Origin: Microcystis viridis FACHB-1342
GTDB lineage: Bacteria > Cyanobacteriota > Cyanobacteriia > Cyanobacteriales > Microcystaceae
Direction of reading: 5' to 3'
Length of the DNA: 57,145 bases
Assembly: GCF_014698335.1 (NCBI RefSeq)
Contig: NZ_JACJSV010000024.1
Span: 1-57,145, forward strand
In this document: one piece after another, positions 1,902 through 35,947 of the stretch
How the letters are laid out: each line of letters opens with the position of its first letter
Numbering within the stretch: the stretch's first letter is position 1
The notes under the pieces: model-generated
The model's input: only the letters and a program-made list of their open reading frames with translations
The model's database searches: none
What the model was told of the DNA's origin: nothing
Translations under genes and position numbers: made by a program

Positions 1902-3488
1902 ATGACCTACTGTCTTAATCCCGACTGTCCTCAACCGAAAAACGCCGCAACAGCGTTAATCTGCGAGAGTTGCGGTTCAAAACTTCTTCTCCACAACCGC
2001 TATCGAATTCTAGGCATTTTAGGGAAAGGAGGGTTTGGGGCAACCTTTGCCTCATCGGATTTGTCCCTACCAGGTACCCCCCTATGTGTGGTCAAACAAC
2101 TGCGACCTTGCACTGATGATGCTAATGTTTTTAAGATGTCCAAGGAACTTTTTGAGCGAGAAGCGGAAACCCTAGGAAAACTGGGGGTTCATCCGCAGGT
2201 TCCCCGATTATTGGACTATTTTGAAGATAATCAACAGTTTTATCTAGTTCAGGAATACGTTAAAGGTCATAACCTCTACCAAGAGGTAAAAAAACGTGGC
2301 CCGTTTAGCGAAGCGGGAGTCAAACAAGTTTTAAGTGAACTTTTGCCGATTTTGAAATATATCCACAAACAAAGGGTAATTCATCGGGATATCAAACCCG
2401 CTAACCTAATTCTCCGGCACACGGATCGAAAATTGGTTCTGATTGACTTTGGGGCTGTCAAAAATCAAGTTAACACTGTTATTGCCAATGTCAATTCTCA
2501 AGACGCTTTGACTAATTTTGCCGTGGGTACCCAAGGTTATGCCCCTCCCGAACAGATGGCCATGCGTCCGGTCTATGCCAGTGATATCTATGCCGTGGGA
2601 GTTACCTGTATCTATCTACTCACGGGCATATCTCCTAAGACTATCGAAGTTGATGTCAATACAGGTGAATTACTCTGGGAAAAATTAGTCAAGGTGAGTC
2701 CTCAGTTTGCTAAAGTCCTGAAAACAATGCTGCAAGTCTCCATCCGTCATCGCTACAAATCCGCCCAAGAGGTAATGGATGCTTTAGACATGACCGCTTA
2801 TGCCGATAGTCTAGCCCAAAGTTTAATCGCGGCTCCAATGGTTACTTCCCCGAAACCACCACAAGATTCAGGTCAAATAGCCACTTCCTCCGTTTCTAGC
2901 TCTCTCAACTCTAAATTTCGCTCCAAAAATAAAAATCCAGAAACCTCTCCAGATAATCTGCCGGGGGCGCAGATGGCCTTTTCAATAACTAATACAAATA
3001 TACTGCCGAAAAACAAAGACCACAGCAGCCCAGATATAACCTTACCGAAGAGAAAACGCCGCTTAGATGAAAAAGCGATTCTCTATGCTTACAATAACGG
3101 CCGGCGCAATTTCGCCCAGGAGGAATTATCGAATCTCAATCTGTCTAAAGTACAACTTTTGCGGGTAATTTTCTTTCAATGCAAATTAACAGGAACTAAT
3201 TTACAAGGGGCGGATCTGTCCCATGCGGATCTGGGCCGGGCCAATCTCAGTCAAGCGATTCTCAAAAATGCCAATTTAGATAATGCCTATCTCGGTTATG
3301 CAGACCTGGAAGAGTCCGATTTACGCGGGGCTAATCTCACCTGCGCCCGTCTTCGCTACGCTAATCTCAAAGATGCTAATCTTTGCGGGGCTAATCTCTC
3401 TGATGCCCAAGTAACTCGAGAACAAATCGCTATGGCAAAAACCAATTGGTTAACAGTTATGCCCAATGGTAAACGCGGTTGCTGGTAA
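1902..3488 (+). CDS. SpkB-like Ser/Thr protein kinase with pentapeptide repeats
   Basis: A 528-residue eukaryotic-type kinase. An N-terminal Cys cluster (C4, C9, C21, C24) looks like a small zinc ribbon. The kinase domain spans about 33-295: glycine-rich loop GKGGFG, VVKQL lysine at about 65, HRDIKPAN at 161-168, DFG at 182-184, and an APPEQ activation segment. A low-complexity Ser/Pro linker (about 305-380) leads to a block of A(N/D)LxX pentapeptide repeats (about 425-505). This architecture matches Synechocystis SpkB, known to need its Cys motif and to act in oxidative stress; the target here is inferred only. All catalytic residues are present. Confidence 0.9.
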   Translation: MTYCLNPDCPQPKNAATALICESCGSKLLLHNRYRILGILGKGGFGATFASSDLSLPGTPLCVVKQLRPCTDDANVFKMSKELFEREAETLGKLGVHPQVPRLLDYFEDNQQFYLVQEYVKGHNLYQEVKKRGPFSEAGVKQVLSELLPILKYIHKQRVIHRDIKPANLILRHTDRKLVLIDFGAVKNQVNTVIANVNSQDALTNFAVGTQGYAPPEQMAMRPVYASDIYAVGVTCIYLLTGISPKTIEVDVNTGELLWEKLVKVSPQFAKVLKTMLQVSIRHRYKSAQEVMDALDMTAYADSLAQSLIAAPMVTSPKPPQDSGQIATSSVSSSLNSKFRSKNKNPETSPDNLPGAQMAFSITNTNILPKNKDHSSPDITLPKRKRRLDEKAILYAYNNGRRNFAQEELSNLNLSKVQLLRVIFFQCKLTGTNLQGADLSHADLGRANLSQAILKNANLDNAYLGYADLEESDLRGANLTCARLRYANLKDANLCGANLSDAQVTREQIAMAKTNWLTVMPNGKRGCW

Positions 3489-3493
3489 TCTTT

Positions 3494-3617
3494 TTTCAGT
3501 GATCAATAATCAGCAATCAGTAAAAAGACAAGGAAACTTCGATTTAATACTGTCACTTAAAACTCAAATCTGATAGCTGATAACTTACCCACTGATAACT
3601 GATCACTGATCACTGAT
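3494..3617. repeat. Repeat with ACTCAAATCTGATA core and TGATCACTGA tandems
   Basis: Between two convergent genes. The block CACTTAAAACTCAAATCTGA at 3554-3573 recurs at 28592 (+) and near 24657-24680 (inverted). It is followed by units of the TGATAACTGA / TGATCACTGA type, the same short unit that forms arrays at 24506, 28610 and 51150. Confidence 0.75.
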
Positions 3618-4658
3618 TTAACCGCGGCTTTCCTTAAAGGTTTTGTAGGCGGTTTCGGAGTCGAAAATATGGCAATAATCAACGATTCGCTTCATTAATG
3701 CCCAAGAAAACTGGGTTTCTTTCAGGTGACTACCCCAATTTTCTTGGAGACTAGCGTGAACTTTGCGGAGGTTATAGGAAGGAATCGCCGTCGAGATATG
3801 ATGGGGGATATGGACATTAATATCGTGACAGAGAATTTCTACCCAACGGGGATAGCTACAGTGAACTGTTCCTTCTAGTTGCGCTAAAGCTTGATTCCAG
3901 TCTTCAGGATGGAAAAATTGAATATCGGGGTCTGTGTGATGGACAAGGGTAAAGGTACTCATCCAAAAATGATAGACAAACCAAGGTACCACCCAAAATT
4001 TAACCAATCCCCAGACACCAGTGTAGAAAATGAGGGTTGGGAAAAAAATAGCGGCAAAAACTAGGACGACAATCATCGAAAAGCGGGCTTTTTCCCGTTC
4101 GTTCTCCTTGAATTGTTCGATATTGAAGTGTAGAATAGCCCAGTGGGCGATCGAACCGAGCCACCAGAAACGTCCGCGAATGCCGCGATAAAAGAGACGC
4201 ACTAGGGGATTGGCCGAGTTAAAAGCTTCTAATTCCCACGGATCCCAAGCATTATCTATCGTTACCATGTTAGTTTTAGCATGATGGCGATCATGGAGGA
4301 AACGCCAGCAGTGGAAGGGATAGATAAGGGGTAAAAGGAAAATATGACCGACAAGATCATTAACCCAGGGTCGATTAGAAAAAGACCGATGACCGCCATC
4401 ATGGGCGATCACAAAGAATCCCGTTAAAGCTGTACCCGTGAAAATCCAAGCTAAAGGCAGTAAATACCAGGGAGAATAAACTAGCATTGCATAACCGGCA
4501 ATGACCGCCAAAATATTCGTAATTACACCAAACCAAGCTTTAAGCGGGTCTTTCTGGAAATATTCTTTGGGAATGCTTTGAATAATATCTTTCAGTTTAA
4601 AGTCTGGCTCGATCGAGGTGATCAACTCCCCATGCAATTTATCCGTCGTTGCCGTCAT
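3618..4658 (-). CDS. desA: Acyl-lipid delta-12 fatty acid desaturase (DesA-like)
   Basis: A membrane di-iron desaturase that puts the second double bond into membrane glycerolipid acyl chains, using ferredoxin in cyanobacteria. Three histidine boxes are present: HDGGH (about 86-90), HDRHH (about 122-126) and HIPHH (about 283-287), with hydrophobic spans between them. The overall sequence resembles Synechocystis DesA, including the VKFW...[12 protein letters not shown] region. The start was placed at the ATG at 4658 because GGAGA lies a few bases upstream; an in-frame start 36 bp further out (4694) has no such site. Desaturases of this type are cold-induced in other cyanobacteria; nothing here shows regulation directly. 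Confidence 0.9.
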
Positions 4659-4845
4659 GAAATCTCCAATTACACTTAGGTGAACCCTTGACAATAAATC
4701 AGCTAGGAGGTTTAGCCAAATTCTGCTCTATACCACAAGCCAATTTTTTTGTCAATATATTTTTAACTTTAATTAATAAACTTCCGCGAAGCTTAATAAT
4801 CCTTTACTTTATATAACATAAGAGGGGATTTTCTGTTTTGGCAAA

Positions 4846-4890
4846 ATTTGCCTTTTGCCTCTTGCCTTTTGCCTTCAGAAGCTGATAACC
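4846..4890. repeat. TTGCCTT/TTGCCTC heptamer array with CAGAAGCTGATAAC tail
   Basis: Four TTGCCTT/TTGCCTC units followed by CAGAAGCTGATAACCGATAA. The same junction appears inverted at 24522-24560, where a TTATCAG array runs into CTGAAGGCAAAAGGC, so the two array types are linked as a composite element. Confidence 0.8.
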
Positions 4891-4928
4891 GATAAAAAGC
4901 CCAAATATTGACTATTTTTAGACGTTTT

Positions 4929-5843
4929 TTAACGACTAGCTGTGTTTTCTAGGGATTTAATCTCCTCCTGTACCTTACGGTGTTCGCGATTTAACTGTTT
5001 TTTGACCGATTCGGGGAGTTGTTCCTGTTTTTTCAGGGCATTATTAAAGTAATCTAGTGCCAGTTTCAAAGAGCCAGTATTTTTATCCGTATTGCCTTGA
5101 ATTCTCAGGATTTGACCCTTCAGATACATTAATTCCGGATTCTCGGGGGTCGCTTTCAGAGCGTTATCGATAAACCGCAAAGCCTGATCATACTGCTTTA
5201 AATCCCGGTAAGCTAGAGCGATACCTCGATCGACCAAGTAATCAGGACTCCCATAGGTTTCTAGCCGTTGAATTGCCTCTTGAGGACTAGAAAAGGGCAA
5301 ATTAACCGCTAAAATCAAATCCATATAACCCTTTAACAGGTTCAATTCCGGATCCGTAGGATTAACCTTTTCTGCGGTTTCCAAATACTGAAACACCTGT
5401 TGTAATCTGGGGATGGCCGATACTGCTCCTTCGGTTTGAAAAACGTAGGTTCCCTCCAAAAAACTCCCCACCGCGAGATACAAATTTCCCCTTAAAGGGT
5501 CACTGTCCTGCATTTGTTTGGCCGCTGCCTTAGTTTTCTCGGAGTAGGTTTTGAGGGTGTTCCAATCCTGGTCGGTAAAAGCAAGAGAGGCACGCATAGC
5601 ATGGGACAAAGGTTCTTGGGGTTCCTTTTCTGTGGCCTCAACAATTAATTTTTTTGCCTCTAGATAATTACCTTGTTTAAAAATAGCGTTAAAAGCGGCC
5701 TCGGTCTTATCACCAATCGGTCGGGGATTGGTTTTGCGGAAAGGATCTCCAGCTAACCCTGGACTAATCCAGTTAACCACTACCATAACAGCCAGCGAAG
5801 CACCGATCGCCATTTTTTTCGTTAAACCTAACCTCAGCACCAT
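4929..5843 (-). CDS. Exported tetratricopeptide-repeat protein
   Basis: A 304-residue protein from the ATG at 5843, chosen because AAGGAG lies about 10 nt upstream; the 13-codon extension to 5882 lacks a site. An N-terminal hydrophobic stretch (MAIGASLAVMVVVNW) followed by SPGLAGD looks like a signal peptide, so it is probably periplasmic. The rest is helical with TPR units, clearest near LVDRGIALAYRDLKQYDQAL and LMYLKGQILRIQGN, then a charged C-terminal helix. It resembles conserved cyanobacterial TPR proteins such as Synechocystis Sll0314 (from memory). Function is unknown; TPRs suggest protein binding. It is divergent from the ABC ATPase gene. Confidence 0.75.
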   Translation of the reverse strand: MVLRLGLTKKMAIGASLAVMVVVNWISPGLAGDPFRKTNPRPIGDKTEAAFNAIFKQGNYLEAKKLIVEATEKEPQEPLSHAMRASLAFTDQDWNTLKTYSEKTKAAAKQMQDSDPLRGNLYLAVGSFLEGTYVFQTEGAVSAIPRLQQVFQYLETAEKVNPTDPELNLLKGYMDLILAVNLPFSSPQEAIQRLETYGSPDYLVDRGIALAYRDLKQYDQALRFIDNALKATPENPELMYLKGQILRIQGNTDKNTGSLKLALDYFNNALKKQEQLPESVKKQLNREHRKVQEEIKSLENTASR

Positions 5844-5928
5844 GGTCAAAAGTCTCCTTGAGCGAATGAAAAAATCTGTCACAATAGAAACGGGTTTCTA
5901 GACTTAATTTCCAGTTATTTTCCTGTCA

Positions 5929-6561
5929 ATGCTTTATCTCAAAGATGTGGTTTATCATCCTCCCGCTGCCCTCAATCCCATTTTACAGGGGATTAATCTC
6001 GAATTAGCATCCCAAGAATTAGGTCTGATTGTCGGGCCCAGTGGTTCCGGAAAAACGACTCTTTTGGAAATTTTAGCAGGCTTTGCCGATAAAACGGCAG
6101 GGACGATTCACTGGCGCGACCAAGAATTAACGGTGCTGCACCTGCAACAATTAGGAGGAATCGTTTTTCAGTTTCCTGAACGTCATTTTTGCGGTAAAAC
6201 CATCCTTGAGGAGTTGCGTCTCGGTCATCCGGAGATTAAAAGCGATCGCCTGACGGCGGCCTTAAAGGAGGTAGGATTAGAAAACATTCCCCTGGATACT
6301 TCTCCCCACAATCTTAGTGGAGGTCAACAGCGTCGTTTATCCCTCGCTGTTCAGTTAATCCGGCAGCCTAATCTGTTACTTCTCGATGAACCTACGGCCG
6401 GTTTAGATTGGTCGATGCGTCGTCAATTGGCTAAACTTCTCGCTAGTCTCAAACAAAACTGGACTTTATTAGTAGTTAGTCACGATGCTGGGGAATTATT
6501 GCCTATTGCTGACCGTCACTGGAAAATTGAACAAGGACATTTGAGGGAAGTAATAAAGTAA
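5929..6561 (+). CDS. ABC transporter ATP-binding protein, ECF/ABCI11-like
   Basis: A 210-residue single ATPase domain. Walker A GPSGSGKTT is at 36-44, the Q-loop region FQFPERHF at about 80-87, signature LSGGQQ at about 129-134, Walker B LLLLDEPTAGLD at about 149-160, and the switch His in VVSHD. The FQFPE-type Q-loop is typical of energy-coupling-factor ATPases, and plant chloroplast ABCI11 proteins look alike. No permease gene adjoins it, so the substrate is unknown. The start ATG gives the normal N-terminus for the family. Confidence 0.85.
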   Translation: MLYLKDVVYHPPAALNPILQGINLELASQELGLIVGPSGSGKTTLLEILAGFADKTAGTIHWRDQELTVLHLQQLGGIVFQFPERHFCGKTILEELRLGHPEIKSDRLTAALKEVGLENIPLDTSPHNLSGGQQRRLSLAVQLIRQPNLLLLDEPTAGLDWSMRRQLAKLLASLKQNWTLLVVSHDAGELLPIADRHWKIEQGHLREVIK

Positions 6562-29335: not shown

Positions 29336-29420
29336 TTAACGTTGGGCAATTTCCACAGTGCGATCATTACTAAAGGAATCCACCACAATAATATGATCTA
29401 TACCCAAGCTTTTTGGTGAA
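29336..29420 (-). pseudogene. Remnant of a family 2 glycosyltransferase gene
   Basis: On the minus strand the frame LGIDHIIVVDSFSNDRTVEI followed by AQR and a stop matches the first conserved block of GT2 glycosyltransferases (DEIIVVDSxSTDxTVEIA). Nothing upstream or downstream continues the domain, so only about 28 codons survive. Confidence 0.6.
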
Positions 29421-29759
29421 AGCTGGATAAATAAACAGGCTCTAGTTTTAAGAAATATCTCAAACTGTTATAAAACTTAATCAAGAGAGGGATCATATAC
29501 AAAACTTAACATTGTTTAACGTCAAAACTTCAGTTCAAAGCCAATCAATTCCCTAACCAGGCAGCTGCGTTAAAATGGGGATAAGGTTAAGAATACAACT
29601 AATCCCTACAGCAGAGTCTTTTGGATTGGCACCTATAACAAGTTATCCCGTGCGATGATCGGGGAAACTCAGGTTTTAGGAGAACAAAGAATTTTTTTCC
29701 AAATCTCTGTGGAAAGATGTATTATGAGCCATCATAAATCTTCTTCAATCAGCATTGGG

Positions 29760-29864
29760 AGCTAATCACAGTATGAAAGTGGACAAACACCTGTCTTAAG
29801 TTAGACAATTCTACCCTCAGGAATTTCTTTGATTTAAAACCGAGTCCTGTCGATAGAGTTATGT
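29760..29864 (+). repeat. Degenerate direct repeat, upstream copy
   Basis: Begins AGCTAATCACAGTATGAAAG and ends GATTTAAAACCGAGT... It shares TAATCACAG, TGAA-GTGGACAA, CTGTCT-A-GTT-GA and AATTTAAAACC-AGT blocks with the copy at 29975. Confidence 0.75.
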
Positions 29865-29974: not shown

Positions 29975-30066
29975 TAATCACAGGGTGAAGGTGGACAACT
30001 ACACTGTCTCAGGTTGAACGATTCTCCTACAATAAATTTTTCTAATTTAAAACCAAGTTACTATGT
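29975..30066 (+). repeat. Degenerate direct repeat, downstream copy
   Basis: Begins GGTAATCACAGGGTGAAGGT and ends TTTAAAACCAAGTTACTATG at the recombinase-like start. About 215 bp separate it from the upstream copy. It covers the presumed promoter and leader, so these repeats may be binding sites for the protein. Confidence 0.75.
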
Positions 30067-30678
30067 ATGGATAACCTAATCACGATTAGAGAAGCCTCGG
30101 GCTTGCTCGGAGTTAGCATTAAAACCCTCCGGCGCTGGGAACAACAGGGGAAAATTTCCTCAATTCGTACCCCTGGTGGTCATCGGCGCTACCGACGGCA
30201 AGATATATTACAATCTGTTCAATCAACCCCATTTATCATTGGCTATGCTCGTGTTAACCGACCTGAACAAAAACAACAACTAGAGGATCAAATAAAAGCC
30301 TTAGAAGACTTTTGTCATCAGCAGGGTCAACCCTTTGAAATTCTCAGCGATATCGGCAACGGAGTCAGTCACAATCGCCCTAATCTTATGCGTCTAGTAG
30401 AGATGATGTGTAACGGTGGGTTGGAATGTCTAGTTTTAACCCATCCAGAAAGTGTTGGCCGCTTTTGTCATGATTTTATTTTGGGTTTGTGCAGTTTCTT
30501 GAAAATCCAAGTCATTCTCCTCAATCAACCCCAGAAATCCATTGCAGCTGAGGATTTAGTGGACGATCTGCAAGCCCTCGTCACCATCTGTTACAATCGT
30601 CTCTACCCGCTACATAACCCGGATCATCGGCAATTGGTGGAATACCTAGGGGCGCTTAAGAATCTCCCCTCGGCTTAA
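30067..30678 (+). CDS. Domesticated IS607-type serine recombinase/MerR-like regulator
   Basis: 203 residues. Residues 1-50 are a MerR-type helix-turn-helix (LITIREASGLLGVSIKTLRRWEQQGKI, TPGGHRRYRRQDI). Residues 55-195 match the small serine-recombinase domain of IS607 TnpA (GYARVN.PEQKQQLEDQI...). The catalytic Ser, normally YARVS, is Asn64 here; the usual DR pair after VVTHK is E128-S129 (LTHPESVGRFC). So DNA cleavage should be lost while fold and DNA binding remain. No tnpB adjoins. It is probably a regulator derived from an IS607 element. Two direct repeats precede it. Confidence 0.8.
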   Translation: MDNLITIREASGLLGVSIKTLRRWEQQGKISSIRTPGGHRRYRRQDILQSVQSTPFIIGYARVNRPEQKQQLEDQIKALEDFCHQQGQPFEILSDIGNGVSHNRPNLMRLVEMMCNGGLECLVLTHPESVGRFCHDFILGLCSFLKIQVILLNQPQKSIAAEDLVDDLQALVTICYNRLYPLHNPDHRQLVEYLGALKNLPSA

Positions 30679-30815: not shown

Positions 30816-31832
30816 ATGAAACTAGAAACCACGGCGATTAAACGGATTCTCGATGCTAACCTTGACCGCGCTAGAGAAGGACTGCGAATTATCGAAGAAT
30901 GGTGTCGTTTTGGCTTAGATAATCCCAATTTAGCCCAAGAATGTAAAGAAATGCGCCATCAATTAGCTAGTTGGCACTCGATCGATCTTAAACGACATCG
31001 GGACACAGCCGGCGATATCGGCACAAATTTAAGTCATCCCAGGGAAGAAATCCGGGAGACTGTCGAGGGACTGCTGCAAGCAAATCTCGCTCGCGTACAG
31101 GAGGCTTTTAGGGTTTTAGAAGAATACGGTAAACTCTATGATCTAGAGCTAGGGATAGCCTGTAAACAGCTGCGCTATCGGGTTTATCAGCTAGAGAGTA
31201 AACTATTAATCTCGCCACCTCTGGAAAAACTAAAAGCATCTCCCCTCTATCTAGTCACTTCTCCCGCCGAAAATCTGTTAGAAATCGTCGAATTAGCCCT
31301 AAAAGCAGGTTTAAAATTGGTGCAGTACCGCCATAAAACCGCCGCTGATACGATTCGTTTAGAAGAAGCTGCTAAACTGTGTGAGTTATGCCACCGTTAT
31401 GATGCTTTGTTTATTATGAACGATCGCGTCGATATTGCTCAGGCCGTTCATGCTGATGGTGTTCATCTCGGTCAACAGGATCTACCGATTTCCCTAGCGC
31501 GGCAATTTCTCGGCCCGACGGCAATTATCGGCCGGTCCACCACTAATCCCCAAGAGATGGCCAAAGCAATCCAAGAAAAGGCCGATTATGTGGGAGTTGG
31601 TCCAGTTTATGCCACCCCCACCAAAGCGGGAAAAACCCCCGCAGGATTGGAATACGTCCGTTATGCGCGGGAAAATTGCCCTTTACCCTGGTTTGCGATC
31701 GGTGGTATTGATAGTAATAACATTAAAGAGGTTTTAGAGGCAGGAGCGCAACAGGTAGCTGTAGTCCGGGCCATCATGGAAGCGCAGCACCCCGATGTGG
31801 TGACACAAGAATTATTAACCCAATTAAAGTAG
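30816..31832 (+). CDS. thiE: Thiamine-phosphate synthase ThiE with N-terminal extension
   Basis: 338 residues. ThiE joins HMP-pyrophosphate and the thiazole phosphate into thiamine phosphate. The TIM-barrel domain covers about 140-335: LVQYRHK, FIMNDRVDIAQAVHADGVHLGQQDLP, IGRSTTNP, YVGVGPVYATPTKAGK and WFAIGGID. The first 130 residues are the helical extension common in cyanobacterial ThiE (ILDANLDRAREGLRIIEEW). thiS follows after about 130 bp of repeats. The TAG stop merges into a GGTGTGG array. Confidence 0.96.
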   Translation: MKLETTAIKRILDANLDRAREGLRIIEEWCRFGLDNPNLAQECKEMRHQLASWHSIDLKRHRDTAGDIGTNLSHPREEIRETVEGLLQANLARVQEAFRVLEEYGKLYDLELGIACKQLRYRVYQLESKLLISPPLEKLKASPLYLVTSPAENLLEIVELALKAGLKLVQYRHKTAADTIRLEEAAKLCELCHRYDALFIMNDRVDIAQAVHADGVHLGQQDLPISLARQFLGPTAIIGRSTTNPQEMAKAIQEKADYVGVGPVYATPTKAGKTPAGLEYVRYARENCPLPWFAIGGIDSNNIKEVLEAGAQQVAVVRAIMEAQHPDVVTQELLTQLK

Positions 31833-35412: not shown

Positions 35413-35886
35413 CTACTTATCCGCTTCTAATCTGGCTAATAAACTGACTAACTTATCTCTGACGGAATTGTGAGTGTATTCGTCTTCAGGGTGGGGTTTT
35501 TGATGGGGTTTTTGAAAATAGGGACGTTCCCCGTATAATTGTCCCCATTTCACATCGACTCGGTGTACTAATTCATAGAGTAATTCTTGATTGTCTAAAA
35601 TTTCTTCTAGGATTAACTGTAAAGCTTGAACGGGATTATCTAAATTTTGACTGACTTTGGTTAATTCTTCATCGACAATAAGCTGTAAAATTATCTGCAA
35701 AGCTCCCGAAGAATCCCCTAAATTAGCGGCAATAAATTGTTTAATCTCTGTGGTAACTTGCACCAATTTGGGGACAGGAGATTCTCCTTTGAGGAAATCC
35801 GCCCCCTCTTGAGCGATAAAATCTGCTAGGGTAAACTCGCGCCTTTCGATGATATCTTGGGAAAAATCCGGTTCTTCAGGGGTCAT
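35413..35886 (-). CDS. Conserved cyanobacterial hypothetical protein
   Basis: 157 residues, acidic, helical, no membrane span or signal. Two similar helical units can be seen: SSGALQIILQLIVDEEL and NPVQALQLILEEILDNQ, an internal repeat. The C-terminal part is basic (YFQKPHQKPHPEDEY). Divergent from pepP by about 60 bp. I do not recognise a named family. Confidence 0.7.
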   Translation of the reverse strand: MTPEEPDFSQDIIERREFTLADFIAQEGADFLKGESPVPKLVQVTTEIKQFIAANLGDSSGALQIILQLIVDEELTKVSQNLDNPVQALQLILEEILDNQELLYELVHRVDVKWGQLYGERPYFQKPHQKPHPEDEYTHNSVRDKLVSLLARLEADK

Positions 35887-35947
35887 AAATTAAAAATATT
35901 AGCGATAATAGACTCTAGGACTTATTGTGACATTTTTAGGAATATCT

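Follow-up and report, generated by a model that had tools for sequence, protein, structure and literature searches.

The window studied here, a stretch of 57,145 nucleotides of Microcystis viridis FACHB-1342, carries a gene that resembles the transposase gene tnpA of IS607-family elements. Residues of the active site are replaced, and the next gene is thiE (a name we presume from its protein sequence), where an IS607 element has tnpB directly downstream. The question is why such a gene is kept. An earlier note on this DNA had proposed domestication to a DNA-binding, bridging regulator. The explanation that we favor, with a probability of about 0.6, is that, after its chemistry and tnpB were lost, an IS607 TnpA persisted in the chromosome as a protein that binds DNA.

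Table 1. Features around the tnpA-like gene of the window (dN/dS values are those of the Microcystis orthologues)
Feature	Position	Strand	Remarks
Element E1	29398..29444	+	47 bp; contains an altered GCTGGATAA half-site; retained in the window
Upstream box 1	29776..29815	+	45.0 bits; TGGACAA-N15-TAGACAA direct half-sites, 22 bp apart, inverted TGTC between
Inter-box segment	29846..29970	+	same place as the decayed gene start of ~41 codons readable in L031 and L082
Upstream box 2	29988..30027	+	38.2 bits; degraded copy directly before the start codon
Orphan, catalytically degenerate IS607 TnpA-like gene	30067..30678	+	ATG start, 203 aa, no internal stop
MerR-like helix-turn-helix	30076..30210	+	residues 4-48; dN/dS 0.27, most constrained domain
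Serine-recombinase catalytic domain	30235..30531	+	residues 57-155; relaxed, dN/dS 0.66
Asn64 codon	30256..30258	+	replaces the nucleophilic Ser; alignment with solved relatives and orthologues
Glu128-Ser129 codons	30448..30453	+	replace the Asp-Arg pair; alignment with solved relatives and orthologues
E-helix region	30532..30675	+	residues 156-203; dN/dS 0.88, least constrained
thiE (presumed thiamine phosphate synthase)	30816..31832	+	downstream neighbor; dN/dS yardstick, 0.10

Family membership and catalytic residues

By descent, the 203-aa protein belongs to the IS607 TnpAs. It scores 122.2 bits with the NCBIfam IS607 transposase model NF033518 (cut-off 110), and it joins an N-terminal MerR-like helix-turn-helix (HTH; Pfam MerR, 54 bits, residues 6-42) to a C-terminal serine-recombinase domain (Pfam Resolvase, 41 bits, residues 57-154), in agreement with the earlier note. 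Its best solved relatives are 3lhk, 3lhf, 6dgc, and 3ilx (E 1e-19 to 6e-14), three of which carry names of serine recombinase or transposon proteins, and because of this similarity in sequence to solved structures the fold is taken to be retained. BldC-type MerR-like regulators, which bind direct repeats, have a small HTH of a similar kind; the window's protein differs from them in its attached recombinase domain and, with 56.1 bits, scores below the cut-off (77) of the BldC model (HTH_BldC).

A functional IS607 transposase has a nucleophilic Ser together with a set of Tyr, Arg, Lys or Arg, Asp, Arg, and Arg. Here the Ser is replaced by Asn64 (YARVN) and the Asp-Arg pair by Glu128-Ser129 (HPES), just as first read, and Tyr60, Arg62, Arg104, and Arg132 are kept; the positions were named from the alignment and from what we take to be the catalytic residues of serine recombinases. 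The frame is intact, and a search with one TnpB query found no TnpB-like ORF within 1.5 kb of the gene, both as had been claimed. Mobile IS607 elements would be expected in several copies or at varied sites. The sole match to the protein in the window's genome at E 0.01 is the gene itself, and each Microcystis genome with the gene has one copy, mostly at one place. As for the ends of an element, repeats that resemble a left end lie upstream of the gene.

Compared with the IS607-family TnpAs of IS1535, ISC1904, and ISC1926, as presented in the accessible parts of PMC6188088 and PMC4058570, the window's protein has the same domain order, the same fold as judged from its sequence, and a passing score in the family model, and direct-repeat motifs lie upstream of its gene where the left end would be. 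It differs in that its catalytic set is broken, that no tnpB was found nearby, and that it is a single, vertically kept copy with the constraint on the HTH and not on the catalytic domain.

Catalytic-site loss and selection

Counting the window's own, 12 Microcystis genomes were compared, and 10 of them have a full-length orthologue; the nine orthologues other than the window's are 76-87% identical to it. One genome (G003) has no match to the 203-aa protein, and in another (G010) the gene is broken, with a C-terminal piece alone behind unrelated, probably inserted sequence. All ten full-length orthologues have Asn64 and Glu128, with Ser or Thr at position 129. Close homologues with Ser64, which the earlier note had named as the sign of a recent point mutation, were not found in the 12 Microcystis genomes, and such a mutation is ruled out by Asn64 in all ten orthologues together with the multi-site loss across the clade described below. 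Phage or plasmid orthologues gave no match at 60% identity or above.

Other genera of the Microcystis family also have orphan relatives (27-42% identity). In a tree of 72 rows, the 24 orphans of the family form one clade (support 100/99) nested within the IS607 TnpAs, in which some long rows, L075 with Microcystis included, may be falsely joined according to a warning of the tool. Rows sharing identical last 170 residues were merged. The tree excludes ORFs below 185 aa, among them partial matches (L059 and L062, for example) and a third copy in L064 that is short at its N-terminus, as well as one fusion frame at 4688-5578 of L074.

Several genera are represented in the clade, whose members have lost catalytic sites in differing combinations with their frames open. 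Scored at seven catalytic positions (60, 62, 64, 104, 128, 129, and 132), none of the 24 orphans has the complete set, compared with 47 of the 48 other rows, and each lacks at least two of the seven. Ser64 is lost in 19 orphans (15 Asn, 4 Gly) and the basic residue at 104 in 20; the five that keep Ser64 are more distant from Microcystis and lack other catalytic residues. The matches examined from other families were 14 intact-type loci and 40 further TnpAs of the order, our selection among the matches listed (168 of 388 genomes matched at 1e-30), where "intact" means that the catalytic residues are present in the sequence. All 40 further TnpAs have Ser64, and 36 have the complete set. A TnpB-like ORF lies within 1.5 kb of none of the 24 orphans and of 21 of 49 other rows (at L008 the search covered 204 bp downstream); since one TnpB query was used, 28 intact-type rows also appear without one.

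Read from these alignments, the loss of catalytic residues is old, fixed, and multi-residue, and the protein is very probably domesticated and non-catalytic. It is highly improbable that it still acts as a recombinase, through another nucleophile or in a mixed oligomer with a live TnpA: the retention of Tyr60, Arg62, Arg132 and, in the window, Arg104, as well as Ser64 in five orphans, would allow it, but there are the losses at two or more sites in every orphan, the single copy mostly at one place, and the requirement of the presumed active-site serine for IS607-family transposition that is stated in the accessible part of PMC6188088. If domestication is true, proteins that pass the "IS607 family transposase" model in the Microcystis family are partly misnamed.

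In Microcystis, the ORF is maintained by selection, as all ten frames are open and neutral simulations (substitutions only, run on the gene's own tree) kept all ten in 0 of 2000 cases. The constraint on the whole gene is weak. Its dN/dS is 0.54, compared with 0.10 in thiE and 0.02 in a group of intact IS607 TnpAs from the Microcystis family; the low value that had been expected was not found, and low dN/dS as proof of domestication is thus ruled out. The values per domain (Table 1) agree with a pN/pS of 0.32 in the HTH versus 0.75 in residues 57-200, which was as low in 15 of 5000 permutations. When the 14 intact TnpAs are compared mutually, the catalytic domain is the most conserved (84%; E region 81%, HTH 77%). 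When the window's protein and 12 of 14 other-genus orphans are compared with these 14, it is the HTH, at 59-73% identity; the exceptions are L078 and L048_677, whose HTHs have diverged. By this measure, the constraint is shifted from the catalytic domain to the HTH, and since the HTH is the most conserved and most constrained domain, selection appears to keep a DNA-binding protein rather than an enzyme.

A slowly dying relic, on which selection has almost ceased and whose intact frames reflect a lag, would agree with the whole-gene dN/dS, the 0.88 of the E region, the genome without a match, the broken gene in G010, and the loss of a partner gene in the window (see below). It is nevertheless improbable, given the outcome of the neutral simulations, the constraint on the HTH, and the spread of the clade across several genera with differing site losses and frames still open. 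In the window's strain, which no longer has this partner, the gene may be in the course of being lost.

Upstream boxes

The two upstream repeats of which the earlier note spoke are present as the pairs 29759-29786/29971-29998 (86% identical) and 29791-29845/30004-30058 (71%). According to the accessible part of PMC6188088, the TnpA of IS1535 binds four directly repeated, helically phased 9-bp motifs inside the left end. Upstream regions were shown for 11 of the 14 intact relatives from other families, and in six of them (L115, L120, L121, L123, L125, and L131) TTAGACA repeats stand just upstream of tnpA, the remaining five having weaker forms or none. No TTAGACA repeats were seen in the upstream regions inspected for seven more distant TnpAs.

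Similar arrays, resembling transposon ends, lie upstream in much of one half of the orphan clade. In the Microcystis half, the motif has a 10-bp phase in L068 and L075, an inverted partner in L067, and the form TGGACAA-N15-TGGACAA in Microcystis. With a matrix built from 22 instances picked by eye in intact left ends, a pair (array) test gave p = 0.002, its floor, for L067, L068, and L075, 0.005 for the window, 0.007 for L005, and 0.015 for L066, and was not significant for L034 (0.19) and L065 (0.54). Eight of nine genes tested in the other half of the clade were not significant, the exception being L064a (0.047). Among 16 control regions, two had p < 0.05, one being the L066 intergenic region viewed from the other side. 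One control region, at 35577-35926 of the window, has three motif-matrix matches within its 350 bp (count-based p = 0.002); they lie largely within a listed ORF and are probably due to chance.

The match between the motif upstream of some orphans and the left ends of intact other-family relatives, together with the similarity of their HTHs noted above, could also mean that the dead TnpA is a guard acting in trans, occupying the left ends of live IS607 elements and blocking their transposition. We consider this quite unlikely, as a search of the window's genome with the 203-aa protein turned up no second IS607 TnpA, and as the IS607 TnpAs that are common in Microcystis (the L012 group) have no upstream TTAGACA array at the two loci inspected.

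Across the ten Microcystis orthologues, the 40-nt box has a mean identity of 0.84 (0.88 at half-site positions) versus 0.69-0.74 in the flanks, and every orthologue has at least one box. Five have a single box beside the start codon, two a single displaced one, and three (the window, L031, and L082) have two near the gene; L082 has a third, 2.4 kb upstream. When 150 of 2301-3632 candidates per genome were scored, 14 strong matches (at least 38 bits) were found in the 10 genomes, and only at the orphan locus. Neither G003 nor G010, both without the full gene, had a strong match among the 150 scored, and no unlinked one was found among those scored in any genome; therefore no regulon is visible. 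A recurring weak match (19.3 bits) was rejected as a sign of a regulon defined by the full box, as in L158, where it was checked, it sits inside a coding frame. Box 1 also contains a promoter-like match, and because TTRGACA resembles a -35 hexamer, part of the motif signal and of the box conservation may come from a promoter. It is fairly likely that the protein binds its upstream boxes.

In L082 and L031, the first ~41 codons of the gene can still be read in the stretch between the two boxes (none of 500 shuffles gave as good a local alignment), and these two loci group with the window in the tree (94/98). Between the boxes of the window, such a gene start is no longer recognizable (159 of 500 shuffles as good). 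Because of the decayed gene start in L082 and L031 and the shared tree group, a partial tandem duplication that took in the promoter and the start of the gene is the best explanation of the two upstream repeats; for the window itself we infer it. An evolved operator pair is ruled out for Microcystis overall, seven of the ten orthologues having a single box near the gene.

This bears on the bridging part of the original proposal. In the accessible part of PMC6188088, filaments of IS1535 TnpA pair the two ends before any chemistry, with active sites facing away from the DNA, and helix E is needed for cooperative paired-end assembly. A DNA-bridging or nucleoid-like architectural protein might then be suspected behind the two boxes of the window. 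Bridging is unsupported, however, because the E-helix region is the least constrained, and with one box near the gene in most orthologues and a second box in the window that fits the duplication, such a role is less likely still than that of a guard. The part of the proposal that stands is domestication to a DNA-binding protein, which agrees with the old catalytic loss, the selection on the ORF, the constraint on the HTH, and the upstream array.

Neighboring genes and a possible regulatory role

A divergent PEP-CTERM gene is the next sizeable upstream gene at all eight Microcystis loci with enough upstream sequence to be assessed (L031, L032, L034, L035, L080, L081, L082, and L162), in L080 beyond an inserted transposase-like gene; in L033 the contig border ends the upstream sequence. 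Seven of these genes were called with TIGR02595 above its cut-off and that of L162 (also as G002) by pattern. PEP-CTERM proteins are exported via exosortases, as stated in the accessible part of PMC12188702. The window is the exception, having no PEP-CTERM-like ORF, and none of the 12 PEP-CTERM matches in its genome lies on its contig. The six genomes searched have 12-45 such matches each, and 402 kb of other loci hold five PEP-CTERM-like ORFs. When read by eye, 29337-29395 on the minus strand of the window resembles the start of a glycosyltransferase gene and may be what a deletion left at the place that the PEP-CTERM gene occupies in relatives.

Element E1, the consensus of which contains TTGGACAAA, lies 204-222 bp upstream of the divergent PEP-CTERM start in L031, L032, L034, L035, and L162 and 470 bp from it in L081. 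The best match in L082 is that of a second PEP-CTERM gene; L080 and L033 gave none. Among 150 candidates scored per genome, there were 14 strong E1 matches across the genus, 13 of them near a PEP-CTERM gene and the remaining one in the window; at least two of the PEP-CTERM-linked ones are far from the orphan gene (G001 and G009). Four weak R2 matches (19 bits) were rejected as regulon sites, as they lie in a coding frame and away from any PEP-CTERM gene.

Downstream, thiE follows in seven of nine assessable Microcystis loci and a phosphoglucomutase-like gene in the other two. Two Microcystis genomes have an isolated TnpB-like gene, encoded on the minus strand, between thiS and the next gene (L032:8405-9613 and L080:8578-9786); it is absent from that place in the window. 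As a tnpB partner it was rejected as unrelated, lying on the opposite strand beyond thiE and thiS, ~1.8 kb (L032) or 1.7 kb (L080) downstream.

Orphans of other genera have persistent host neighbors as well. G026 belongs to another genus and has its orphan elsewhere in the chromosome, again facing a PEP-CTERM gene, with a motif array between the two; at nine other-genus loci (L063-L066, L069, L076, L077, L165, and L166) no PEP-CTERM-like ORF was found. In three genomes of the other half of the clade (L069, L076, and L077), the orphan is divergent from the same glycosyltransferase-like gene of ~330 aa. Also in that half of the clade, one to three orphans stand directly upstream of groEL on the same strand in L063:7652-10142 (G037), L064:4438-6538 (G038), and L078:5288-5905 (G035), with a tandem of three in two of the three genomes. 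The glycosyltransferase-like and groEL names are presumed from the protein sequences.

These observations are best accommodated by one ancient domestication into a local DNA-binding protein that would probably regulate its own gene. In an ancestor of the Microcystis family, the chemistry of an IS607-type element would have been lost together with tnpB, and its TnpA would have stayed in the chromosome to bind DNA. The protein would bind the TTRGACA/TGGACAA repeats in its own upstream region and repress or tune its own promoter. In genomes that still have the partner, it would also limit the promoter of the divergent PEP-CTERM surface-protein gene. Only autoregulation would be visible in the window's genome, because the partner is gone there. 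Regulation of the PEP-CTERM gene in Microcystis, suggested by motif and neighbors, is possible, with the odds somewhat against it. More speculative, and on balance unlikely, is that the transposase was taken over along with the binding sites in its left end, the two already forming a repressor and its operator. A single domestication would then have given non-catalytic TnpA regulators at various host loci (next to PEP-CTERM genes, a glycosyltransferase gene, and groEL), and in Microcystis the end of a mobile element would have turned into the operator of surface-protein genes. If true, a dead TnpA with a left-end-like operator would be a simple route from selfish element to regulator, and such a regulator would be tied to the surface proteins of a bloom-forming genus.

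TldR proteins are reportedly regulators derived from TnpB. They share with the window's case that part of a TnpA/TnpB element became a regulator after catalysis was lost; the difference is that TnpB with a guide RNA was used there and a TnpA with its own HTH here. Recruitment of mobile-element proteins by prokaryotes is of a known kind, the accessible text of the review PMC8987985 describing host functions that arose from such proteins, although it treats active recombinases and phage or antitoxin regulators; "IS607" is absent from its main text. In the literature searched, of which parts were accessible and most lay outside subscription journals, no description was found of an IS607 TnpA recruited after loss of catalysis, and within these bounds the pairing of a dead TnpA with an operator that resembles its left end would be a new form of such recruitment.

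In L082, the PEP-CTERM/TnpA unit seems to have been duplicated, as positions 2288-5974 contain, in tandem, two PEP-CTERM genes and three boxes together with a decayed gene start.
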